Shown piece by piece: positions 1-36,648 of a stretch of 64,000 nt of DNA; position 1 is the stretch's first letter, and every line of letters starts with the position of its first letter. The position numbers and the translations under genes are program-made. Origin of the DNA: Chamaelirium japonicum (Eukaryota > Streptophyta > Magnoliopsida > Liliales > Melanthiaceae); assembly GCA_947650365.1 (NCBI GenBank), contig CANTAL010000148.1, positions 558,001 to 622,000 on the forward strand, given 5' to 3'. The notes under the pieces are model-generated. The model saw nothing but the letters and a program-made list of their open reading frames with translations. It was not told the DNA's origin and did not search any database.

Positions 1-1625
1 ATTCGTGCGAATGAATTAGAATGGATCGTACGAATGAATTAGAATGGATCGTACGAATGAATTAGAATGGATCATGCGAATGAATTAGAATTGATCGTAC
101 ATACGAATTAGTTAGAATGGATCGTACGAATGAATTAGAATAGATCTTACGAATGAATTAGAATGGATAGTGCGAATGAATTAGAATGGATCGTACAAAT
201 GAATTAGAATGGATACATTCGTGCGAATGATTTAGAACGGATTGTGCGAATGAATTAGAACGGATCGTGCGAATGAATTAGAATGGATCGCACGAATAAA
301 TTAGAATGGATCATACAAATGAATTAGAATGGATCGTACGAAAGAATTAGAATGGATCATACGAACGAATTAGAATGGATCGTACGAACGAATTAGAATG
401 GATCGTACGAACAAATTAGAATGGATCGTACGAATGAATTAGAATGGATACATTCGAGCGAATGAATTAGAATGGATCATACGAATGAATTAGAATGGAT
501 CATAGGAATGAATTAGAACGGATCGTGCAAATGAATTAGAATGGATCATACGAATGAATTAGAATGGATACATTCGTGCGAATGAATTAGAATGGATCGT
601 ACGAATGAATTAGAATGGATCGTGCGAATGAATTAGAATGGATAGTGCGAATGAATTAGAATGGATCGTACGAATAAATTAGAATGGATACATTCGTGCG
701 AATGAATTAGAATGGATCGTACGAATGAATTAGAATAGATCATACGAATAAATTAGAATGGATACATTTGTGCGATGAATAAGAATGGAGCGTACGAATG
801 AATTAGAATGGAGCGTACGAATGAACTAGAATGGATACATTCATGCGAATGAATTAGAATGGATCATATGAAAGAATTAAAATGGATCGTGCGAATGAAT
901 TAGATAGGATCGTACGAATGAATTAGAATGGATACATTCGTGCGAATGAATTTGAATGGATCGTACGAATAAAATAGACTTGATCGTACGAATAAATTAG
1001 AATGGATACATTCATGCAAATGAATTAGAATGGATCGTACGAATGAATTAGAATGGATCATACGAATGAATTAGAATGGATCATACGATTGAATTAGAAT
1101 GGATCATATGAATGAATTAGAATGGTTACATTCATGCGAATGAATTAGAATGGATCGTACGAATGGATTAGAATGGATCGTACGAATGGATTAGAACGCA
1201 TTGTACGAATGAATTAGAATAGATACATTTGTGCGAATGAATTAGATTACATCGTACGAATGAATTTGAATGGATTATGCGAATGAATTAGAATGGATCG
1301 TACGAATGAATTAGTATGGATCATGCGATTGAATTAGAATAGATCGTACGAATGAATTAGAATGGATTGTGGGAATGAATTAGAATGGATCGTACGAATG
1401 AATTAGAATGGATCCACCGAATGTGTTAGAATGGATCATACGAATGACTTAGAATGGATCGTACGAATGAATTAGAATGGATTATGCGAATGAATTAGAA
1501 TGGATCATATGAATGAATAAGAATGGATCGTACGAATGAATTACAATGGATCGTGTGAAAGAATTAGAATGAATCGTACGAATGCATTAGAATGGATCAT
1601 ACGAATGAATTAGAATGAATCGTAC
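1..1625 (+). repeat. Satellite block 1, forward
   Basis: Forward monomers entering from the left edge. The part from about 770 carries bar codes also seen at 13.42-14.79 kb in the same orientation: a one-base-short 28-mer with GTGCGATGAATAAG, the pair of GGAGCG tails, TTAGAACGCATTG at about 1191, and GATCCACCGA at 1411. It ends in AATGAATCGTAC. Confidence 0.95.
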
Positions 1626-1660
1626 GATCCGTACGATCCATTCTAATTCATTCGTCTGAT
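1600..1660. other. Forward-to-reverse junction type 1, first copy
   Basis: AATGAATCGTAC then GATCC, then TTCGTCTGATCC in the next reverse unit. The arms fold into a nearly perfect hairpin with ATCGTACGAT at its tip; here GTACGATCC is repeated once. Related junctions are at about 8401, 14791, 16768, 30998, 36648, 46147, 49318, 50539 and 51581. Confidence 0.88.
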
Positions 1661-2478
1661 CCATTCTAATTCATTCGCACGAATGTATCCATTCTAATTC
1701 ATTCGTACAATCCATTCTAATTCATTCGCATGATCCATTCTAATTCATTCGTATGATCCATTCTAATTCATTCCTACGATCTATTCTAATTCATTCGCTC
1801 GAATGTATCCATTCTAATTCATTCGTTCGATCCTTTCTAATTCATTCGTACGATCCATTCAAATTCATTCGCATGATCCATTCTAATTCATTCGTACGAT
1901 CCATTCTAATTCATTCTCACGAATGTAACCTTTCTAATTCATTTGTACGATCCATTCTAATTCATTCGTACGATCCATTCTAATCCATTCGTACGATCCA
2001 TTCTAATCCATTCGTACGATCCATTCTAATTCATTCATACGATCCATTCTAATTCATTCTCACAAATGTAACCTTTCTGATTCATTTGTATGATCCATTC
2101 TAATTCATTCGTACGATCCATTCTAATCCATTCGTACGATCCATTCTAAACCATTCTACGATCCATTCTAATTCATTCGCACGAATGTAACCATTCTAAT
2201 TCATTCGTACGATCCATTCTAATTCGTTCGTACGATCCATTCTAATTCATTCGCACGAATGTATCTATTCTAATTCATTTGCATGATCCATTCTAATTTA
2301 TTCCTATGATCCATTCTAATTCATTCGTACGATCCATTCTAATTCATTCGCTCGAATGTATCCATTCTAATTAATTCGCTCGAATGTATCCATTCTAATT
2401 CATTCGTACAGTCCATTCTTATTCGTTCATACGATCCATTCTAATTCATTCGTACGAACCATTCTAATTCGTTCGTAC
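1623..2478 (-). repeat. B module copy 1
   Basis: 856-bp spacer between mirrored arms. The left end has TTCGTCTGATCC (the usual form is TTCGTCCGATCC), then 28-mer GCACGAATG, GTACAATCC, GCATGATCC, GTATGATCC, CCTACGATCT, 28-mer GCTCGAATG, GTTCGATCC, as in 8401-9253. The right end stops three to four units before the canonical right terminus. Confidence 0.8.
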
Positions 2479-5400
2479 GATTCATTCTAATTCATTCATA
2501 CGATCCATTCTAATGCATTCGTACGATTCATTCTAATTCATTCGCACGATCTATTCTAATTTATTCGTACGATCCATTCTTATTCATTCATACGATCCAT
2601 TCTATTTCATTCGCACAATCCATTCTAATTCATTCGTACGATCCATTCTATATCATTCATATGATCCATTCTAACTCATTCGGTGGATCCATTCTAATTC
2701 ATTCGTACGATCCATTCTAATTCATTCGCACGATCCATTCTAATTTATTCTTACGATCCATTCTAATTCATTCGTATGATCTATTCTAATTCATTCGCAT
2801 GATCCATTCTAATTCATTCGTACGATCCATTCTAATTCATTCGTACAATCCATTCAAATTCATTCGTACGATGCAATCTAATTCATTCGCACAAATATAT
2901 CTATTCTAATTCATTCGTACAATGCGTTCTAATCCATTCGTACGATCCATTCTAATACATTTGTACGATCCATTCTAATTCATTCGCACGAATGTAACCA
3001 TTCTAATTCATTCATATGATCCATTCTAATTCTTTTGTACGATCCATTCTAATTCATTCGTATAATCCATTCTAATTCATTCGTACGATCCAATCTAATT
3101 CATTTGCATGAATGTATCTATTCTAATTTATTCGTACGATCCAGTCTAATTCATTCGTACGATCCATTCTAATTCATTCGCACGAATATATCCTTTCTAA
3201 TTCATTCGTACGATCCTTTCTAATTTATTCGCACGATCCATTCTAATTCTTTCATATGATCCATTCTAATTCATTCGCACGAATGTATCCATTCTAGTTC
3301 ATTCGTACGCTCCATTCTAATTCATTCGGACACTCCATTCTTATTTATCGCACAAATGTATCAATTCGAATTTATTCGTACGATCCATTCTAATTCATTC
3401 GTACGATCCATTCTAATTCATTCGTACGATCCATTCTAATTCATTCATATGATCTATTCTAATTCATTCGCGGGAATGTATCCATTCTAATTCATTCGCA
3501 CAATCCAATCAAATTCAAACGTACGATCTATTCTAATTCATTCACATGATGTATTCTAATTCATTCGTTTGATCCATTCTAATTCATTCGTATGATTCGT
3601 TCTAATTTATTCGTACGATCCATTCTAATTCATTCGCACAAAAGTATCCATTCTAATTCATTCGAACGATCCATTCTAATTCATTTGTACGAATGTATCC
3701 ATTCTAATTCATTCGCACGATCCATTCTAATTCATTCGCACGATCCATTCTAATTCATTCGTATGATCCATTCTAATTCATTCGTACGATCCATTCTAAT
3801 TCATTTGCATGAATGTATCCATTCTAATTCATTCGTACGATCCATTCCAATTCATTCGTATGATCCATTCTAATTCATTCATGCAATCCATTCTAATTCA
3901 TTCATACGATCCATTCTAATTCATTCGCATGAATGTATGTATCCATTCTAGTTCATTCGCACGATCCATTCTAATTCATACGTACAATCCATTCTAATTC
4001 ATTCGCACGAATGTATCCATTCTAATTCATTCGCACGATCCATTCTAATTCATTCGTACGATCCATTCTAATTCATTCATACGATCCGTTCAAATTCATT
4101 CGTACGATCCATTCTAATTCATTTGCATGAATGTAACCATTCTAATTCATTCGTACGATCCATTCTAGTTCATTTGCACGATCTATTCTAATTCATTCAC
4201 ACAATCCATTCTAATTTATTCGCACGAATGTATCCATTCTAATTCATTCGCACGATCCATTCTAATTCATTTGAACGGTCCATTCTAATTCATTCGCAAG
4301 AATATATCCATTCTAATTCATTCGCACGATCCATTCTAATTCATTCGTACGATCCATTCTAATTCATTCATACGATCCATTCTAATTCATTCGCACGAAT
4401 GTATCCATTCTAATTCATTCGTACGATCCATTCTAATTCATTCGCATGATCCATTCTAATTTATTCGCACAAATGTATCCATTCTAATTCATTTGTACGA
4501 TCCATTCTAATTCATTCGCACGATCCATTCAAATTCATTCGTATGATCCATTCTAATTCATTCACACGAATGTATCCATTCTAATTCATTCGTACGATCC
4601 ATTCTAATTGATTCGTATGATCCATTTTAATTTATTCGCACGATCCATTCTAATTCATTCGTACGATCCATTCTAATTTTTTCGCACGATCCATTCTGAT
4701 TCATTCGTATGATCCATTCTAATTCAGTCGCACGATACATTCTAATTCATTCGCACGATCGATTCTAATTCATTCGTACGATCCATTCTAATTCATTCGT
4801 ACGGTCCATTCTAATTCATTCGCAAGAATGTATCCATTCTAATTCATTCGCACGATCCATTCAAATTCATTCGTACGATCCGTTCTAATTTATTCGTACG
4901 ATCTATTCTAATTCATTCGTACAATCCATTTTAATTTATTCGTACGATCCATTCTAATTTATTCGCACGAATGTATCCATTCTAGGTCATTCGTATGATC
5001 CATTCTAATTCATTCGCACAAATGTATCCATTCTAATTCATTTGTACGATCCATTCTAATTCATTCATATGATCCATTCTAATTCATTCACACGATCCAT
5101 TCAAATTCATTCGAATGATCCATTCTAATTCATTCGCACAATCCATTCTAATTCATTCGTACGAATGTATCCATTCTAATTCATTCGCATGATCTATTCT
5201 AATTCATTCGTAAGGTCCATTCTATTTTATTCGCAAGAATGTATCCATTTTAATTTATTCGCACGATCCATTCTAATTCATTCGTACGATCCATTCTAAT
5301 TCATTCGTACGATCCATTCTAATTCATTCTTACGATTCATTCTAATTCAATCGTACGATCCATTCTAATTCATTCATACAATCCATTCTAATTCATTTGC

Positions 5401-7090
5401 ACGAATGTATCCATTCTAATTCATTCGTACGAACCATTCTAATTCATTCGCACGATCCATTCTAATTCATTCGTATGATCCATTCTAATTCATTCGCACA
5501 AATATATCCATTCTAATTTATTCGCACGATACATTCTAATTCATTCGTACGATCCATTCTAATTCATTCGCACGATCCATTCTAATTCATTCGTACGAAT
5601 GTATAAATTCTAATTCATTCGTACGATCTATTCTAATTCATTCGTACGATCAATTCAAATTCATTTGTACGATCCATTCTAATTCATTCGCATAAATGTA
5701 TCCATTGTAATTCATTCGCACGATCCATTCTAATTCATTCGTACGATCCATTCTAATTCATTCGCAAGATCCATTCTAATTCATTCGTACAAATGTTTCC
5801 ATTCTAATTCATTCATACGATCCATTCTAATTCATTCGTACGATCAATTCTAATTCATTTGTACGATTCATTCTAATTCATTCGCACGAATGTATCCATT
5901 CAAATTCATTCGCACGATCTATTCTAATTTATTTGTATGATGCATTCTAATTCATTCGTACGATCCATTCTAAATCATTAACACGAATGTATCCATTCTA
6001 ATTCATTTGAATGTTTTTAATCTAATTCATTCGTATGATCCATTCTAATTCATTCACACGAATGTATCCATTCTAATTCATTCGCACTATCCATTCTAAT
6101 TCATCCATACGATGCATTCTAATTCCTTCGTATGATCTATTCTAATTCATTCGCACGATCCATTCTAATTCATTCTTATGATCCATTCTAATTCATTCGC
6201 ACGAATGTATCCATTCTAATTGATTCGTACGATCCATTCTAATTCATTCGCACGAATTAAACCATTCTAATTCGTTTGTACGATCCATTCTAATTCATTC
6301 GTACAATACATTCTAATTCATTCGCACGAATGTTTCTAATTCATTCGCACGATCCATTCTAATTTATTCGTACGATCCATTCTAATTCATTCGCACGATC
6401 CATTCTTATTCATTAATACGATCCATTCTAATTCATTCGCACAATCCATTCTAATTCATTCGTACGATCCATTCTAATTCATTCGTATGATCCATTCTAA
6501 CTCATTCGGTGGATCCATTCTAATTCATTTGTACGATCCATTCTAATTCATTCGCACGATCCATTCTAATTTATTCGTATGATCCATTCTAATTCATTCG
6601 TACGATCTATTCTAATTCATTCGCATGATCCATTCTAATTCATTCGTACGATCCATTCTAATTCATTCGTACAATCCATTCAAATTCATTCATACGATGC
6701 AATCTAATTCATTCGCACAAATATATCTATTCTAATTCATTCGTACGATCCATTCTAATTCATTCGTATGATCCATTCAAATTCATTCCCAAGATCCATT
6801 CTAATCAATTCGTACGATCCATTCTAATTCATTCGCACAATCTATTCTAATTCATTCGTACGATCAATTCTAATTCATTCGCTCGATCCATTCTAATTCA
6901 TTCGCACGAATGGATCCATTCTAATTCATTCGCACGAATGGATCCATTCTAATTCATTAGTACGATCCATTCTAATTCATTCTTACATTCCATTCTAATT
7001 CATTCGCACGAATGTATCCTTTCTAATTCATTCGTACGATCCATTCTAATTCATTCGTACGATCCATTCTAATTCATTCGCACGAATCTA
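1626..7090 (-). repeat. Satellite block 2, reverse (5.5 kb)
   Basis: Longest reverse block. Its first 850 bp are a B module; from about 2479 to its end it is the left arm of the large palindrome and mirrors block 5 unit by unit. Rare variants inside include TTGAATGTTTTTAATC (6007-6022), a truncated 28-mer CGAATGTTTCTAAT (6328-6340) and CTATTTTATTCGCAAGAATG (5222-5241). Confidence 0.95.
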
Positions 7091-7150
7091 TCATACGAAT
7101 GAATTAGAATGGATCATGCGAATGAATTAAAATGGATCGTACAAATGAAT
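7060..7150. other. Reverse-to-forward junction type 2, first copy
   Basis: A reverse 28-mer (CGCACGAATCTATC) meets ATACGAATG, followed by CATGCG and an AAAATGG unit. The same junction is at about 17787, 30400, 33920 and 62635. The right half is the reverse complement of the right end of block 4 (9200-9254) and block 42. Confidence 0.88.
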
Positions 7151-8400
7151 TAGAATGGATCGTGCGAATGAATAAGAATGGATCGTACGAACGAATTAGA
7201 ATGGATCGTACGAATGAATTAGAATGGATTGTATGAACGAATTAGAATGGATCGTACGAATGATATAGAATGGATACATTCGAGCGAATGAATTAGAATG
7301 GATCGTACGAATGAATTAGAATGGATCATAGGAATGAATTAGAATGGATCGTGCAAATGAATTAGAATGGATACATTCGTGCGAATGAATTAGAATGGAT
7401 CGTACGAATGAATTAGAATGGTTACATTCGTGCGAATGAATTAGAATGGATCGTACGAATGGATTAGAATGGATCGTACGAATGGATTACAATGGATCGT
7501 ACGAATGAATTAGAATGGATCATACAAATGAATTAGAAAGGTTACATTCGTGAGAATGAATTAGAATGGATCGTACGAATGAATTAGAATGGATCATGCG
7601 AGTGAATTTGAATGGATCGTACGAATGAATTAGAATGGATCGAACGAATGAATTAGAATGGATACATTCGAGCGAATGAATTTGAATAGATCGTAGGAAT
7701 GAATTAGAATGTATCATACGAATGAATAAGAATGGATCGTGCGAATGAATTAGAATGGATTGTACGAATGAATTAGAATGGATACATTCTTGCGAATGAA
7801 TTAGAATGGATCGGACGAATGAATTAGAATGGATCGTACGAATGAATTAGAATGGATCATATGAATGAATTAGAATGGTTACATTCATGCGAATGAATTA
7901 GAATGGATCGTACGAATGGATTAGAATGGATCGTACGAATGGATTAGAACACATTGTACGAATGAATTAGAATAGATACATTTGTGCGAATGAATTAGAT
8001 TGCATCGTACGAATGAATTTGAATGGATTGTATGAATGAATTAAAATGGATCGTACGAATGAATTAGAATGGATCATGCGAATGAATTAGAATAGATCGT
8101 ACGAATGAATTAGAATGGATCGTACGAATAAATTAGAATGGATCATGCGAATGAATTAGAATGGATCGTACGAATGAATTAGAATGGATCCATCGAATGA
8201 GTTAGAATGGATCATACGAATGAATTAGAATGGATCGTACGAATGAATTAGAATGGATTGTGCGAATGAATTAGAATGGATCGTATGAATGAATAAGAAT
8301 GGATCGTACGAATGAATTAGAATGGATCGTGCAAATGAAATAGAATGAATCGTACGAATGCATTAGAATAGATCGTACGAAAGAATTAGAATGAATCGTA
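7091..8400 (+). repeat. Satellite block 3, forward
   Basis: Begins at ATCATACGAATG just after a reverse 28-mer. About 7091-7838 is an inverted B module and ends at the variant tail GATCGGACG (about 7810) plus one ordinary unit. About 7839-8400 is the same forward cassette that precedes the switch in blocks 1 and 5, with TTAGAACACATTG near 7948 and GATCCATCGAATGAG near 8190. Confidence 0.94.
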
Positions 8401-9253
8401 TGATCCATTCTAATTCATTCGTCCGATCCATTCTAATTCATTCGCACGAATGTATCCATTTTAATTAATTCGTACAATCCATTCTAATTCATTCGCACGA
8501 TCCATTCTAATTCATTCGTATGATCCATTCTAATTCATTCCTACGATCTATTCTAATTCATTTGCTCGAATGTATCCATTCTAATTCATTCGTTCGATCC
8601 ATTCTAATTCATTCGTACGATCCATTCAAATTCATTCGCATGATCCATTCTAATTCATTCGTACGATCCATTCTAATTCATTCTCACGAATGTAACCTTT
8701 CTAATTCATTCGTACAATCCATTCTAATCCATTCGTACGATCCATTCTAATCCATTCGTACGATCCATTCTAATCCATTCTAATTCATTCTCACAAATGT
8801 AACCTTTCTAATTCATTTGTACGATCCATTCTAATCCATTCGTACGATCCATTCTAATCCATTCGTATGATCCATTCTAATTCATTCGCACGAATGTAAC
8901 CATTCTAATTCATTCGTACGATCCGTTCTAATTCATTCCTACGATCCATTCTAATTCATTCGCACGAATGTATCCATTCTAATTCATTTGCACGATCCAT
9001 TATAATTCATTCCTATGATCCATTCTAATTCTTTCGTACGATCCATTCTAATTCATTCGCTCGAATGTATCCATTCTAATTCATTCGTACGATCCATTCT
9101 AATTCGTTCATACGATCCATTCTAATTCGTTCGTACGATCCATTTTAATTCGTTCGTACGATCCATTCTAATTCATTCGCACGATCCATTCTAATTCATT
9201 TGTACGATCCATTTTAATTCATTCGCATGATCCATTCTAATTCATTCGTATGA
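8401..9253 (-). repeat. Satellite block 4, reverse; complete B module
   Basis: 853 bp with both recognisable B termini: the left starts with GATCCATTC then TTCGTCCGATCC, the right ends with CGCATGATCC then TTCGTATGATA. It is the inverted partner of 7091-7838. Confidence 0.94.
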
Positions 9254-12200
9254 TACATTCGTGCGAATGAATTAGAATGGATCGTACGAATGAATTAGAA
9301 TGGATCGTACAAATGAATTAGAATGGACACATTCGTGCGAATGAATTATAATGGAATGTAAGAATGAATTAGAATGGATCGTACTAATGAATTAGAATGG
9401 ATCCATTCGTGCGAATGAATTAGAATGGATCGTACGAATGAATTAGAATGGATCGAGCGAATGAATTAAAATTGATCGTACGAATGAATTAGAATAGATT
9501 GTGCGAATGAATTAGAATGGATCGTACGAATAAATTAGAATGGATCTTGGGAATGAATTAGAATGGATCATACGAATGAATTAGAATAGATCGTGCGAAT
9601 GAATTAGAATAGATACATTTGTGCGAATGAATTAGATTGCATCGTACAAATGAATTTGAATGGATTGTACGAATGAATTAGAATTGATCGTACGAATGAA
9701 TTAGAATAGATCATGCGAATGAATTAGAATAGATCGTACGAATGAATTAGAATGGATCGTACGAATAAATTAGAATGGATCGTGCGAATGAATTAGAATG
9801 GATCGTACGAATGAATTAGAATGGATCCACCGAATGAGTTAGAATGGATCATACGAATGAATTAGAATGGATCGTACGAATGAATTAGAATGGATTGTGT
9901 GAATGAATTAGAATGGATCGTATGAATGAATAAGAATGGATCGTGCGAACGAATTAGAATGGATCGTACGAATGAATTAGAATGGATCGTGCGAATGAAT
10001 TAGAAACATTCGTGCGAATGAATTAGAATGTATCGTACGAATGAATTAGAATGTATCGTACGAATGAATTAGAATGGATCGTACAAATGAATTAGAATGG
10101 TTATATTCGTGCGAATGAATTAGAATGGATCGTACGAATCAATTAGAATGGATTCATTCGTGCGAATAAATTAGAATGGATCATAAGAATGAATTAGAAT
10201 GGATGGTGCGAATGAATTAGAATAGATCATACGAAGGAATTAGAATGGATCGTATTGATGAATTAGAATGGATAGTGCGAATGAATTAGAATGGATAAAT
10301 TCGTGCGAATGAATTAGAATGGATCATATGAATGAATTAGATTAAAAACATTCAAAATAAATTAGAATGGATACATTCGTGTTAATGATTTAGAATGGAT
10401 CGTACGAATGAATTAGAATGGATCGTACGAAAGACTTAGAATGGATCGTACGAATGAATTAGAATGGATCGTACGAATGAATTAGAATAGATCGTGCGAA
10501 TGAATTAGAATGGATACATTCGTGCGAATGAATTAGAATGGATCGTACAAATAAATTAGAATTAATCGTACGAATGAATTAGAATGGATTGTATGAATGA
10601 ATTAGAATGGATACATTCGTACGAATGAATTAGAATGGATCGTGCGAATGAATTAGAATGGATCGTACGAATGAATTAGAATGGATCGTGCGAATGAATT
10701 AGAATAGATAAATTCGTGCGTATGAATTAGAATGGATCGTACAAATGAATTAGAATTGATCGTACGAATGAATTAGAATAGACCGTACGAATGAATTAGA
10801 ATTGATACATTCGTACGAATGAATTAGAATGGATCGTGGGAATGAATTAGAATGGATCGTACGACTGAATTAGAATGTATAGTGCGAATAAATTAGAATG
10901 GATACATTTGTGCGAATAAATTAGAATGGATCATACGAATGAATTAGAATGGATCGTGCGAATGAATTAGAATGGATCGTACGAATGAATTAGAATGGAT
11001 ACATTTGTGCAAATGAATTAGAATGGATCGTATGAATGAATTAGAATGGATCGTACGAATGAATTAGAATGAATCATAAGAATGAATTAGAATGGATCGT
11101 ACGAATGAATTAGAATGGATCGTACGAATGAACTAGAATGGATCGTGCGAATAAATTAGAATGGATACATTCTTGCGAATAAAATAGAATGGACCATACG
11201 AATGAATTAGAATGGATCGTGCGAATGAATTAGAATGGATACATTCGTGCGAATGAATTAGAATGGATTGTGCGAATGAATTAGAATGGATCGTGCGAAT
11301 GAATTTGAATCGATCATGCGAATGAATTAGAATGGATCATACGAATGAATTAGAATGGATCGTACGAATGAATTAGAATGGATACATTTGTGCGAATAAA
11401 TTAGAATGGATCGTACAAATGACCTAGAATGGATACATTCGTACGAATGAATTAGAATGGATCGTATGAATAAATTAGAATGGATCGTACGAATGAATTA
11501 GAATGGATCGTACGAATAAATTAGAACGGATCGTACGAATGAATTTGAATGGATCGTGCGAATGAATTAGAATGCATACATTCTTGCGAATGAATTAGAA
11601 TGGACCGTACGAATGAATTAGAATGGATCGTACGAATGAATTAGAATCGATCGTGTGAATGAATTAGAATGGATCGTGCGACTGAATTACAATGGATCGT
11701 ACGAATGAATCAGAATGGGTCGTGCGAATAAATTAGAATGGATCGTACGAATGAATTAGAATGGATCGTGCGAATAAATTAGAATGGATCGTACGAATCA
11801 ATTAGAATGGATCGTACGAATGAATTAGAATGGATACATTCGTGCGAATGAATTAGAATGGATTGTACGAATGAATTAGAATGGATCGTGCGAATGAATT
11901 AGAATGGATCGTACAAATGAATTAGAATGGATACATTTTTGCGAATGAATTAGAATGGATCGTGCGAATGAATTAGAATGGATTGTACGAAATAATTAGA
12001 ATGGATACATTCGTGCGAATGAATTAGAATGGATCGTATGAATGATTTAGAATGGATCGTACGAATGAATTAGAATGGATCGTGCGAATGAATTAGAATG
12101 GATACATTCTTGCGAATGAATTAGAATGGACCGTTCGAATGAATTAGAATGGATCGTGCGAATGAATTAGAATAGATACATTCGTGCGAATGAATTAGAA

Positions 12201-14790
12201 TGGATTGTGTGAATGAATTAGAATAGATCGTGCAAATGAACTAGAATGGATCGTACGAATGAATTAGAATGGTTACATTCATACAAATGAATTAGAATGG
12301 ATCGTACGAATGAATTAGAATGGATCGTACGAATGAATATGAATGGATCGTGCGAATGAATTAGAATGGATACATTCGTGCGAATGAATTAGAATGGATT
12401 GTACGTATGAATTAGAATGGATCATGCGAATGAACTAGAATGGATACATACATTCATGCGAATGAATTAGAATGGATCGTATCAATGAGTTAGAATGGAT
12501 CGTATCAATGAATTAGAATGGATTAGAATGGATACATTCATGCAAATAAATTAGAATGGATCATACGAATGAATTAGAATGGATCGTGCGAATGAATTAG
12601 AATGGATCGTGCGAATGAATTAGAATGGATACATTCGTACAAATGAATTAGAATGAATCGTGCGAATGAATTAGAATGGATCGTACAAATGAATTAGAAT
12701 GGATACATTTGTGCGAATAAATTAGAATGGATCGTACGAATGAATTAGAATGAATCATACGAATGAATTAGAATGGATCATACGAATAACTTAGAATACA
12801 TCATGTGAATGAATTAGAATGGATCGTACGTTTGAATTAGATTGGATTGTGCGAATGAATTAGAATAGATACATTCGTGCGAATGAAATAGAATAGATCG
12901 TATGAATAAATTAGAATGGATCGTACGAATGAATTAGCATGGATACATTTGTACGAATGAATTAGAATGGATCGTACGAATGAATTAGAATGGATCGTAC
13001 GAATGAATTGGAATGGATAGTGCGAATGAATTAGAATGGATCGTACGAATGAATTAGAATGGATTGTACGAATGAATTAGAATAGATCGTGCGAATGAAT
13101 TAGAATGGATCGTTGGAAAGAATTAGAATGGATCGTACAAATGAATTAGAATGGATCATATGAATGAATTAGAATCGATCGTGCGAATGAATTAGAATGG
13201 ATCGTACGAATGAATTAGAATGGATACATTCGTGCGAATGAATTAGAATGGATCGTACGAATGAATTTGAATGGATCGTGCGAATGAATTAGAATGGATA
13301 GTGCGAATAAATTAGAATAGATCGTATGAATGAATTAGAATGGATACATTCGTGCGAATGAATTAGAATGGATCGTACGAATGAATTAGAATGGATCGTA
13401 CGAATAAATTAGAATGGATACATTTTTGCGATGAATAAGAATGAAGCGTACGAATGAATTAGAATGGAGCGTACGAATGAACTAGAATGGATCATATGAA
13501 AGAATTAGAATAGATCGTGCGAATGAATTAGAAAGGATCGTACGAATGAATTAGAATGGATATATTCGTGCGAATGAATTAGAATGTATCGTACGAATGA
13601 ATTAGACTGGATCGTACGAATAAATTAGATTGGACACATTCATGCAAATGAATTAGAATGGATCGTACGAATGAATTAGAGTGGATTATACGAATGAATT
13701 AGAATGGATCGTACGAATGAATTAGAATGGATCGTATAATGAATTAGAATTGTTACATTCGTGCGAATGAATTAGAATGGATCGTACGATTGGCTTAGAA
13801 TGGATCGTACGAATGGATTAGAACGCATTGTACGAATGAATTAGAATAGATACATTTGTGCGAATGAATTAGATTGTATCGTATGAATGAATTTGAATGG
13901 ATTATACGAATGAATTAGAATGGATCGTACGAATGCATTAGAATGGATCATGCGAAAGAATTAGAATAGATCGTACGAATGAATTAGAATGGATCGTACG
14001 AATAAATTAGAATGGATCGTGCGAATGAATTATAATGGATCGTACGAATGAATTAGAATGGATCCACCGAATGAGTTAGAATGGATCATACGAATAAATT
14101 AGAATGGATCGTACGAATGAATTAGAATGGATTGTACGAATGAGTTAGAATGGATACATTCGTGCGAATGAATTAGAATGGAATGTAAGAATGAATTTGA
14201 ATAGGTCGTCCTAATGAATTAGAATGGATCCATTTGTGTGAATGAATTAGAATGGATCGTACGAATGAATTAGAATGGATCGAGCGAATGAATTAGAATT
14301 GATCGTACGAATGAATTAGAATAGATTTGTGCGAATGAATTAGAATGGATCGTACGAATGAATTAGAATGGATCTTGGGAATGAATTAGAATGGATCGTA
14401 CAAATGAATTAGAATGGATCGTGCGAATGATTTAGAATAGATACATTTGTGTGAATGAATTAGATTGCATCGTACGAATGAATTTGAATGGATTGTACGA
14501 ATAAATTAGAATGGATCATACGAATGAATTAGAATAGATCATGCGAATGAATTAGAATGGATCGTACGAATGAATTAGAATGGATCCACCGAATGAGTTA
14601 GAATGGATCATACGAATGAATTAGAATGGATCGTACGAATGAATTAGAATGGATTGTGCGAATGAATTAGAATGGATCGTATGAATGAATAAGAATGGAT
14701 CGTACGAATGAATTAGAATGGATCGTGCGAATGAATTAGAATGAATCGTACGAATGCATTAGAATGGATCGTACGAATGAATTAGAATGA
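9254..14790 (+). repeat. Satellite block 5, forward (5.5 kb)
   Basis: Longest block of the window and right arm of the large palindrome. It holds mirror copies of the block 2 bar codes: GATTAAAAACATTCAA (10340-10355), TAGAAACATTCGTGCG (10001-10016) and CATTCTTGCGAATAAAATAG (11168-11187). The cassette at 9.33-9.9 kb (GGAATGTAAG, then CTTGGG, then GATTGCATCG) returns at about 14.15-14.5 kb, so the arm has an internal repeat about 4.8 kb long. Confidence 0.95.
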
Positions 14791-15732
14791 ATCGTACGAT
14801 CCATTCTAATTCATTCGTCCGATCCATTCTAATTCATTCGCACGAATGTACCTATTCTAATTCATTCGTACAATCCATTCTAATTCATTCGCACGATCCA
14901 TTCTAATTCATTCATATGATCTATTCTAATTCATTCCTACAATCTATTCTTATTCATTCGCTCGAATGTATCCATTCTAATTCATTCGTTCGATCCATTC
15001 TAATTCATTCGTACGATCCATTCTAACTCATTTGGTGGATCCATTCTAATTCATTTGTACGATCCATTCTAATTCATTCGCACGATCCATTCTAATTTAT
15101 TCGTACGATCCATGCTAATTCATTCGTACGATCTATTCTAATTCATTCGCACGAATGTAACCATTCTAATTCATTCGTATGATTCATTCTAATTCATTCG
15201 TATGAGCTATTCTAATTCATTCATACGATCCATTCTAATGCATTTGTACGATTCATTCTAATTCATTCGCATAAATATATCCATTCTAATTCATTCGTAC
15301 GATCCATTCTAATTCATTCGCATGACCCATTCTAATTCATTCACACAAATATATGCATTCTAATTCATTCGTACGATCCATTCTAATGCATTCGTATGAT
15401 CCATTCTAATCTATTCGTACGATCCATTCTAATTCATTTATACGATCCATTCTAATTCATTCTCACAAATGTAACCTTTCTAATTCATTTGTACGATCCA
15501 TTCTAATTCATTCATACGATCCATTCTAATCCATTCGTACGATCCATTCTAATCCATTCGTACGATCCATTCTAATTCATTCGCACGAATGTAACCATTC
15601 TAATTCATTCGTACGATCTATTCTAATTCATTCGTAAGATCCATTCTAATTAATTCGCACAAATGTATCCATTCTAATTCATTCGTACGATCCATTCTTA
15701 TTCATTCATACGATCCATTCTAATTTATTTGT
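14791..15732 (-). repeat. Satellite block 6, reverse
   Basis: Starts with the recurrent left B terminus (TTCGTCCGATCC), then departs from the B order. The CGGTGGATCC-type marker lies near 15026 (here TTGGTGG), and a TATGAGCTATTC unit near 15205 also occurs near 26950 and 61770. Confidence 0.94.
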
Positions 15733-33919: not shown

Positions 33920-36648
33920 CATACGAATGAATTAGAATGGATCATGCGAATGAATTAAAATGGATCGTACGAATGAATTAGAATGGATCGTATAAATGAA
34001 TTAGAAAGGTTACATTTGTGAGAATGAATTAGAATGGATCGTACGAATGAATTAGAATGGATCGTACGAATTGATTAGAATGGATCGTATGAATGAATTA
34101 GAATGGATCATACAAATGAATTAGAAAGGTTACATTCGTGAGAATGAATTAGAATGGATCGTACGAATGAATTCGAATGGATCGTACGAATGAATTAGAA
34201 TAGATCGTGCGAATAAATTAGAATGGATCATATGAATGAATTAGAGAGTTTACATTTGTGAGAATGAATTAGAATGGATCGTACGAATGGATTAGAATGG
34301 ATCGTACGAATTGATTAGAATGGATCGTACGAATGGATTAGAACGCATTGTACGAATAAATTGGAATAGATACATTTGTGCGAATGAATTAGATTGCATC
34401 GTACGAATGAATTTGAATGGATCGGACGAATGAATTAGAATGGATCATAGGAATGAATTAGAATGGATCGTGCGAATGAATTAGAATGTATCGTACGAAC
34501 GAATTAGAATGGATCGTATGAACGAATTAGAATGGATCGTACAAATGAATTAGAATGGATATATTCGAGCGAATGAATTAGAATAGATCGTGCGAATAAA
34601 TTAGAATGGATCATACGAATGAATTAGAATAGATATATTCATGCGAATGAATTAGAATGGATCGTACGAATGAATTAGAATGGATCGTGCGAATGAATTA
34701 GAATGGATCGTATGAATAAATTAGAATGGATTGTACGATTGAATTAGAATGGATACATTCGTGAGAATGAATTAGAATGGATCGTACGAATGAATTAGAA
34801 TGGATACATTCGAGCGAATGAATTAGAATGGATCGTACGAATGAATTAGAATGGATCATAGGAATGAATTAGAATGGATCGTGCAAATGAATTAGAATGG
34901 ATACATTCGTGCGAATGAATTAGAATGGATCGTAGGAATGAATTAGAATAGATCGTATGAATGAATTAGAATGGTTATATTCGTGCGAATGAATTAGAAT
35001 GGATCATAGGAATGAATTAGAATGGATCATGCAAATGAATTAGAATGGATACATTCGTGCGAATGAATTAGAATGGATCGTAGGAATGAATTAGAATGGA
35101 TCGTACGAATGAATTAGAATGGTTACATTCGTGCGAATGAATTAGAATGGATCGTACGAATGGATTATAATGGATCGTACGAATGGATTAGAATGGATCG
35201 TACGAATGAATTAGAATGGATCGTATAAATGAATTAGAAAGGTTACATTTGTGAGAATGAATTAGAATGGATCATACGAATGAATTAGAATGGATCGTAC
35301 GAATGGATTAGAATGGATCGTATGAATGAATTAGAATGGATCATACAAATGAATTAGAAAGGTTACATTCGTGAGAATGAATTAGAATGGATCGTACGAA
35401 TGAATTCGAATGGATCGTACGAATGAATTAGAATAGATCGTGCGAATAAATTAGAATGGATCATATGAATGAATTAGAGAGTTTACATTTGTGACAATGA
35501 ATTAGAATGGATCGTACGAATGGATTAGAATGGATCGTACGAATTGATTAGAATGGATCGTACGAATGGATTAGAACGCATTGTACGAATAAATTGGAAT
35601 AGATACATTTGTGCGAATGAAATAGATTGCATCGTACGAATGAATTTGAATGGATCGGACGAATGAATTAGAATGGATCATAGGAATGAATTAGAATGGA
35701 TCGTGCGAATGAATTAGAATGGATCGTGCGAATGAATTAGAATGGATCGTACGAACGAATTAGAATGGATCGTATGAACGAATTAGAATGGATCGTACGA
35801 ATGAATTAGAATGGATATATTCGAGCGAATGAATTAGAATAGATCGTGCGAATAAATTAGAATGGATCATACGAATGAATTAGAATAGATATATTCATGC
35901 GAATGAATTAGAATGGATCGTACGAATGAATTAGAATGGATCATGCGAATGAATTAGAATGGATCGTATGAATAAATTAGAATGGATTGTACGATTGAAT
36001 TAGAATGGATACATTCGTGAGAATGAATTAGAATGGATCGTACGAATGAATTAGAATGGATACATTCGAGCGAATGAATTAGAATGGATCGTACGAATGA
36101 ATTAGAATGGATCATAGGAATGAATTAGAATGGATCGTGCAAATGAATTAGAATGGATACATTCGTGCGAATGAATTAGAATGGATCGTAGGAATGAATT
36201 AGAATAGATCGTATGAATGAATTAGAATGCTTATATTCGTGCGAATGAATTAGAATGGATCATAGGAATGAATAAGAATGGATCATGCAAATGAATTAGA
36301 ATGGATACATTCGTGCGAATGAATTAGAATGGATCGTAGGAATGAATTAGAATGGATCGTACGAATGAATTAGAATGGTTACATTCGTGCGAATGAATTA
36401 GAATGGATCGTACGAATGGATTATAATGGATCGTACGAATGGATTAGAATGGATCGTACGAATGAATTAGAATGGATCGTACAAATGAATTAGAAAGGTT
36501 ACATTTGTGAGAATGAATTAGAATGGATCGTACGAATGAATTAGAATGGATCGTACGAATGGATTAGAATGGATCGTGCGAATGAATTAGAATGAATCGT
36601 ACGAATGCATTAGAATGGATCATACAAATGAATTAGAATGGATCGTAC
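33920..36648 (+). repeat. Satellite block 29, forward (2.7 kb)
   Basis: Mostly a tandem duplication with 1233-1256 bp period (see separate entry). Entry is the right B terminus in reverse; exit is a worn copy of the recurrent forward-to-reverse junction (GATCGTACAATCC). Confidence 0.94.
33960..36570 (+). repeat. Tandem duplication, 1233-1256 bp period
   Basis: Two full copies and the start of a third. Matching marks: GATCGTATAAATG at 33988 and 35221 (offset 1233), AGAGAGTTTACATTTG at about 34243 and 35476 (1233), AGATATATTCATGCG at 34631 and 35887 (1256), CATTCGAGCG at 34807 and 36063 (1256). The 23-bp change is one extra monomer in copy 2 near 35710. Very few other differences, so the duplication is young. 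Confidence 0.93.

Follow-up and report, generated by a model that had tools for sequence, protein, structure and literature searches.

A diverged kilobase-scale palindrome in a mixed-orientation 23/28-bp satellite array of Chamaelirium japonicum

The 64-kb stretch analysed here (hereafter the window; C160:558001-622000), from a genome assembly deposited for Chamaelirium japonicum (GCA_947650365.1; 1.52 Gb in 3253 contigs), is a single tandem repeat throughout, a 23/28-bp satellite. Within it, a unit of roughly 5-6 kb lies beside its own reversed copy, an inverted duplication that is genuine, though old. The longest inverted match in the window pairs 3494-7843 with the reverse complement of 8396-12856 over 174 monomer pairs with a score of 363, against 17.2 and 16.3 for the best decoys of two kinds, built from the same monomers read in impossible directions. 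An earlier note, made from the letters alone, had claimed that rare variants recur here in mirrored order over kilobases, and the alignment bears this out.

For these comparisons, the window was cut into monomers, matches between monomers were weighted by the rarity of a base in its column, and the monomer strings were aligned locally in four ways: direct, inverted and, as decoys, the two impossible directions. Parsing yielded 2654 monomers, of which 2044 are 23 bp and 491 are 28 bp long; the consensus sequences of these two classes are set apart by a single 5-bp deletion and a single substitution. They form 54 blocks of alternating orientation, which flips roughly every kilobase (about one switch per 1.2 kb), and block lengths are broadly spread (mean 49 monomers, standard deviation 45). 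No Rfam family reached its gathering score in the window, no closed open reading frame of 150 amino acids was found, and none of the satellite patterns, nor the stretch tried, matched prokaryote genomes, viral contigs or plasmids.

Mirrored order and the borders of the arms

The two arms (3494-7843 and 8396-12856) are 96.4% identical over 4089 compared bases, with 148 substitutions, and paired monomers have the same length in 169 of the 174 cases. Non-consensus bases common to both arms number 181 where 27.5 would be expected; a further 73 occur in the left arm alone and 69 in the right alone, and five differ in both; within the arms, five monomers on the left and 10 on the right lack a partner. 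The near-equal numbers of private changes, together with the shared rare bases, support duplication followed by divergence. Counted in bins of 15 monomer pairs, divergence lies between 2.2 and 4.9% and shows no trend along the arm, which fits a single event. The view that this is a true inverted duplication, later altered by point changes and by gain and loss of whole monomers, thus holds, as do the landmarks on which it had been built: the oddity shared by the arms recurs exactly at 6009 (-) and 10340 (+), the match between 5222 and 11168 is exact and longer than 20 bases, and the shared truncated monomer could be located at 6320 and 9974.

The borders required more revision. The arms had been thought to start at the switches flanking the centre, but the mirror passes straight through these (7075 pairs with 9243) and runs on to 7843 and 8396; because the switch at 7075 mirrors that at 9243, it lies inside the arms and is older than the duplication. 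On the outside, two pairs of pieces (2655-3419/13360-14095 and 2471-2884/14457-14799) extend the arms to 2471 and 14799; the core aligns continuously, whereas these outermost parts match in pieces only. The term 'nested' proved apt in that the arms hold their own mirrored switch, and a smaller palindrome (777-1627/2471-3346; 35 monomers, score 60.8, 94.5% identity) abuts the large one. The spacer region in turn resembles the unit's outer end: 7964-8403 is inverted to 2471-2912, and there are direct matches as well (8153-8610 to 14549-15006; 7844-8860 to 1091-2129).

The earlier note had also proposed that 2479-7090 be aligned with the reverse complement of 9254-14790 and compared with random block pairs. 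This alignment scored 236 at 96.1% identity, whereas 258 random pairs of 179 monomers, aligned regardless of block orientation (the proposed arms have 190 and 229 monomers), had a mean score of -528 (standard deviation 59, maximum -201) and a mean identity of 94.2% (standard deviation 0.5, maximum 96.0). The alignment score separates the arms clearly from random pairs; identity alone is a weak discriminator and was rejected as the sole test, its value for the arms lying next to the random maximum.

Table 1. Coordinates of the palindrome, its switches and related features in the window
Feature	Position	Strand	Details
Left arm, continuous core of palindrome	3494..7843	- to 7075, + after	Inverted alignment with 8396-12856
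Right arm, continuous core	8396..12856	- to 9243, + after	Partner of 3494-7843
Spacer between arms, 552 bp	7844..8395	+	From the alignment
Left arm, outer part	2471..3419	-	Pieces to 13360-14095 and 14457-14799; inverted scores 61.5, 45.3
Right arm, outer part	13360..14799	+	Ends at + to - switch
Second, smaller palindrome	777..3346		777-1627 mirrored by 2471-3346; spacer 1628-2470
Rare 24-bp monomer	6005..6028	-	Shared with 10334-10358
Switch, inner edge of right arm	8383..8416	+ to -	Centred on dyad TCGTAYGA
Switch, same family as 8403	1607..1649	+ to -	Direct flank scores with 8403: L26 R43
Switch, same family, outer end of right arm	14779..14812	+ to -	Flank scores with 8403: L40 R15
Switch inside left arm	7063..7113	- to +	Mirrored at 9231-9281; inverted flank scores L145 R47
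Switch inside right arm	9231..9281	- to +	Mirror of 7063-7113
Switch-to-switch unit U, 6.4 kb	8396..14799		Right arm and outer part; + to - switch at each end

Inverted copies and strand switches across the arrays

The palindrome is the longest example of a general property rather than a one-off. We sampled 25 further 10-kb stretches, three of which (L024, L027 and L028) lacked the satellite and were excluded from all counts; the remainder and the window make up seven stretches totalling 284 kb on five contigs. Inverted matches occur in all seven, and no decoy reaches the score of 25 used as threshold. At that threshold the window alone gives 103 direct matches, 98 inverted matches and no decoys, and in one of the seven stretches the direct matches number at least 300. 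When the smaller pieces were taken separately, a lower threshold of 20 admitted five decoys (the best at 22), and the 20 kb left of the window gave no inverted match. The window palindrome is the longest inverted pair in this sample, followed by pairs of 76, 51 and 49 monomers.

Two general patterns were considered and dropped. Matches do not cluster at switches (38 of 201 cross one, with 46.5 expected), and a generally greater age of inverted pairs is not supported, the mean identity of pairs of at least 20 monomers being 0.9686 for inverted and 0.9667 for direct ones (p = 0.75).

The arm itself seems to belong to a family of segments spread over the chromosomes, since a 23-bp stretch of its rare monomer has 17 exact copies in the genome on 10 contigs, with further close inverted pairs at C11:34320345/34331752 and C98:669813/673262/685915 that are possibly further palindromes of the same family. 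A second marker lies 315-338 bp away in the same orientation in three of eight copies of the oddity (on contigs within the range of the places listed). Markers of the arm, with 650 and 235 exact copies, were too common to map other copies of it.

Switches are likewise copied. The right arm's inner-edge switch comes from a junction family that is old, has been copied many times and has the dyad TCGTACGA at its centre: within the window it belongs to a single-linkage family of 10 junctions, in which seven further switches join the trio at 1627, 8403 and 14799, and with three mismatches allowed its type was found at 46 places in nine of nine sources. A junction so widespread was probably not created by the palindrome event.

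How far the dyad governs switching in general can be judged from spacing, flanks and overlaps. Of the junctions listed for the window, 20 of 28 + to - ones are spaced about TCGTACGA as their centre and 11 of 27 - to + ones about ATTCGTACGAAT, with one or more chance anchors in each list; across all seven stretches together, the same spacings account for 57 of 141 and 31 of 135, respectively. When junctions were grouped into flank-sharing clusters, these spacings were found in 9/21 + to - and 9/32 - to + clusters at the highest linking threshold, in 6/14 and 7/24 at the middle one, and in 1/6 and 5/12 at the lowest. Among the distinct types, overlaps of at least 4 bp occur in eight of the 30 that are + to - and in 15 of the 37 that are - to + (random joints, 11%); mean overlap exceeds the random value for - to + types (2.84 versus 1.54, p 0.012) and not for + to - types (1.27 versus 1.44, p 0.61). 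On these counts the dyad is a frequent, non-exclusive switch point. An independent origin of every switch at the dyad is not supported, as the 265 junctions from nine sources reduce to 67 types and belong mostly to a few flank-sharing clusters.

Genome-wide, strict patterns find 59 239 - to + and 38 564 + to - switches, about 97 800 together, counts that are slightly inflated by overlapping matches. The same patterns recover only 14 and 6 of the roughly 27 switches of each kind in the window, so the true genome number is probably larger.

Several further features of the arrays were noted in passing. Four + to - switches (21899, 25695, 42348 and 63678) carry an odd half-monomer, TGCAATCTAATTC or TGCAATCTAATCC, directly after the dyad, and on a chromosome-scale contig (C1:1.37-2.44 Mb) the places listed include switch types unlike those of the window, such as CGTACGATCGTACG and TTAGCACGATCCATGCTAA. 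At 33975-36560, some 1.3 kb has recently been duplicated in direct tandem, and its copies, at 99.2% identity, are the closest among the 40 window pairs with an identity listed; a 2.6-kb unit in three direct copies (98.8%) enters the window from the left (L013:3732-10000 and window 1-1560). Further left, at about 546.8-550.1 kb of the same contig (L012:8849-10000 and L013:1-2080), the array is interrupted by a non-satellite insert with an open stretch of 1002 amino acids, which reads like a plant long interspersed element (LINE) reverse transcriptase. Elsewhere in the assembly, COX1 frames of 532 amino acids are open in the standard code, as fits a plant mitochondrion; full COX1 of the same score is present on at least dozens of small contigs (C514-C3216), and much organelle sequence seems to have been left in the assembly.

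A proposed inversion of a direct copy and the alternatives

How did the reversed copy arise? The reading we favour, to which we give about an even chance, is duplication of a switch-bounded unit followed by inversion of one copy through recombination between opposite blocks. On this reading, the array would first have acquired strand switches, which in many cases have the monomer's self-complementary 8-mer TCGTACGA at their centre, and these would then have been copied along with it. A switch-bounded unit of about 6.4 kb (U, 8396-14799) would have been amplified in direct orientation, and one copy would later have been inverted when monomer blocks of opposite orientation underwent homologous exchange. 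The outcome would be rc(U), the reverse complement (2471-7843), beside U and enclosed by direct U pieces, and both copies would then have diverged to their present identity by point changes and monomer gain or loss.

Pieces of U occur in both orientations elsewhere in the window, and direct pieces lie at 556-1445 (score 46), 1650-2129 (score 43), 7964-8313 (score 50) and 14800-15006, with a further weak one at 1469-1627 (score 18, near the decoys). Flanked in this way on both sides, the left arm thus amounts to an inverted copy of U enclosed by direct pieces. At both borders of this inverted copy, blocks of like orientation meet (- to - at 2470/2471, + to + at 7843/7844), and such borders together with direct remnants are what exchange between opposite monomers would leave, which supports inversion. 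From these features we infer the order of events, direct copying before inversion, and the exchange mechanism.

The principal rival is a one-step inverted duplication, by fold-back priming or by replication template switching of the microhomology-mediated break-induced replication (MMBIR) or origin-dependent inverted-repeat amplification (ODIRA) type, which we regard as possible though unlikely. Here a 3' end at a TCGTACGA dyad would reach back some 550 bp, pair with a second TCGTACGA and copy 5-6 kb in reverse, leaving a short spacer. The 552-bp spacer with TCGTAYGA at its border, and the switch located where spacer and right arm meet, fit this, and the two arms, short spacer and short self-complementary switch sequence resemble known fold-back duplications (PMC3907307, PMC10622511, PMC10766183; here and below, comparisons draw on portions of the cited papers). 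Each of 21 junctions sequenced from human inverted duplications contained a spacer, and 13 of them showed inverted microhomology of 2-8 bp (PMC3907307), and yeast models rely on short inverted repeats (PMC10766183, PMC10622511). In the wider sample, spacers below 1 kb are in excess among inverted pairs of at least 30 monomers (five of 19, with 0.9 expected; p 0.0016 if the pairs are independent), but the excess disappears once pairs down to 10 monomers are included (14 of 330, with 12.0 expected). Overlaps of at least 4 bp occur in 23 of the 67 junction types, well above random joints, but the mean overlap of + to - types is not above random; and in the 11 pairs with a short spacer, the switch is roughly 50 bp or less from an arm edge six times and in mid-spacer five times. 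A fold-back should have produced a junction at the spacer edge that is private to the event, whereas the inner junction has both of its flanks in common with 1627 and 14799; in contrast to fold-back duplications elsewhere, it derives from an older shared family, and its surroundings are satellite. It is for this reason that we favour inversion of a direct copy over a one-step fold-back. The sister genus Chamaelirium also counts against fold-back, as it has TTCGTACGA and yet consistently oriented arrays (PMC12722358).

Selection for macro-dyad symmetry, whereby long inverted arms would be kept because their hairpins or cruciforms aid centromere chromatin, is in our view improbable. It draws on the presence of an 8-bp dyad in a centromeric satellite (PMC10264360) and on the function proposed for macro-dyads in Tribolium (PMC13081366), but the wide spread of block lengths is as in random switching, the arms have diverged by 3.6%, and the centromere arrays of the sister genus are consistently oriented. 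Least probable of all, to the point where we give it hardly any weight, is an artefact of sequencing or assembly, such as a fold-back (hairpin) read or mis-joined haplotypes. Although the satellite sits on a 788-kb contig, a fold-back read would be near identical in its two halves, whereas the arms differ by 148 substitutions and each has its own private changes; inverted pairs also occur on other contigs, one of them 137 Mb long, and the published C. japonica assembly was made from HiFi reads with hifiasm (PMC10264360).

Several observations nonetheless weigh against inversion of a direct copy. Mean identities of direct and inverted pairs do not differ significantly, giving no sign that direct copies come first, and although 12 of 76 long direct pairs and none of 19 long inverted ones are at least 98% identical, this difference is not significant (Fisher p = 0.12). 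Inverted matches cross orientation switches in 11 of 98 cases, where 21.4 would be expected (standard deviation 3.9), and the excess of short spacers would be expected from fold-back as well. A hotspot making alike junctions repeatedly could in principle account for the shared family. The events are judged from two arms, and breakpoints at the same-orientation borders are resolved to the nearest monomer. Keeping to duplication followed by inversion, we take the palindrome as a by-product of array turnover.

Known satellites and the spread of holocentromeres

Judged by its repeat anatomy rather than by the published monomer letters, the window satellite is very probably of the type of Chio1/Chio2, the CENH3-binding satellite of the holocentric Chionographis japonica (Kuo et al. 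2023, PMC10264360). Chio1 and Chio2 are 23 and 28 bp long, are a 5-bp deletion and a 1-bp substitution apart and have dyad symmetries (PMC10264360); their arrays are published as individual mixtures of forward and reverse arrays (PMC10264360, PMC12722358). The motif TTCGTACGA is common to the satellites of Chionographis and of its sister genus Chamaelirium, whose arrays are consistently oriented (PMC12722358). The window agrees in its intermingled 23/28-bp variants, the deletion and substitution, the dyads, the mixed orientation and TTCGTACGA, which is found in its - blocks (for example ATTCGTACGATCC); the two plant genomes are also alike in size. That a sister genus has the motif yet oriented arrays indicates that the dyad is not sufficient for switching.

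Whereas the published Chio text describes a mixture of orientations only, the window adds mirrored monomer order, shared junctions and inverted kilobase copies. Mirrored monomer order was not found in the portions of the two Chionographis papers considered (PMC10264360, PMC12722358), in whose main text the word 'inverted' has zero occurrences, and no further report of it was evident in the part surveyed of the literature on Chionographis inversions and holocentromere satellites. In that limited sense only is the mirror order new. Comparable macro-dyads are known in Tribolium (PMC13081366), where kilobase inverted subarrays of (peri)centromeric satellites have inversion sites recurring in like form and where macro-dyad symmetries are stated to be documented only in that genus. 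The window shares with Tribolium kilobase inverted subarrays within one array (54 blocks, the longest pair 174 monomers), but lies in a plant, has a 23-bp monomer and consists of many blocks, and the 265 junctions of the nine sources fall into 67 types, in contrast to the predominantly two subarrays and few inversion-site types of Tribolium; a monomer-order match of arms, as found here, is not reported in the portions of that text considered. Human BSat and HSat arrays likewise have interspersed, mosaic inversions (PMC9186530), but differ in sequence and host, and the portions of that text considered give no monomer-order comparison.

The known mixed orientation of these arrays is thus accompanied by inverted kilobase copies that keep the order of their monomers, and comparing such bar codes against clean decoys is a way to read the history of a satellite array. 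Because direct and inverted copies are about equally frequent in the window (103 and 98 matches), we also offer a broader suggestion, which we consider rather unlikely to be right: that the arrays of Chio holocentromeres are in equilibrium of orientation, since switch-bounded units whose switches were seeded at the 8-bp dyad are flipped again and again by recombination between opposite blocks, and that this inverting exchange, which the macro-monocentric sister genus apparently lacks, could have let centromere units spread along chromosomes. It thereby becomes testable why one genus has some 100 000 strand switches in its centromere repeats when a sister that shares the dyad is reported to have arrays of consistent orientation, and whether inversion may have helped holocentromeres to spread.

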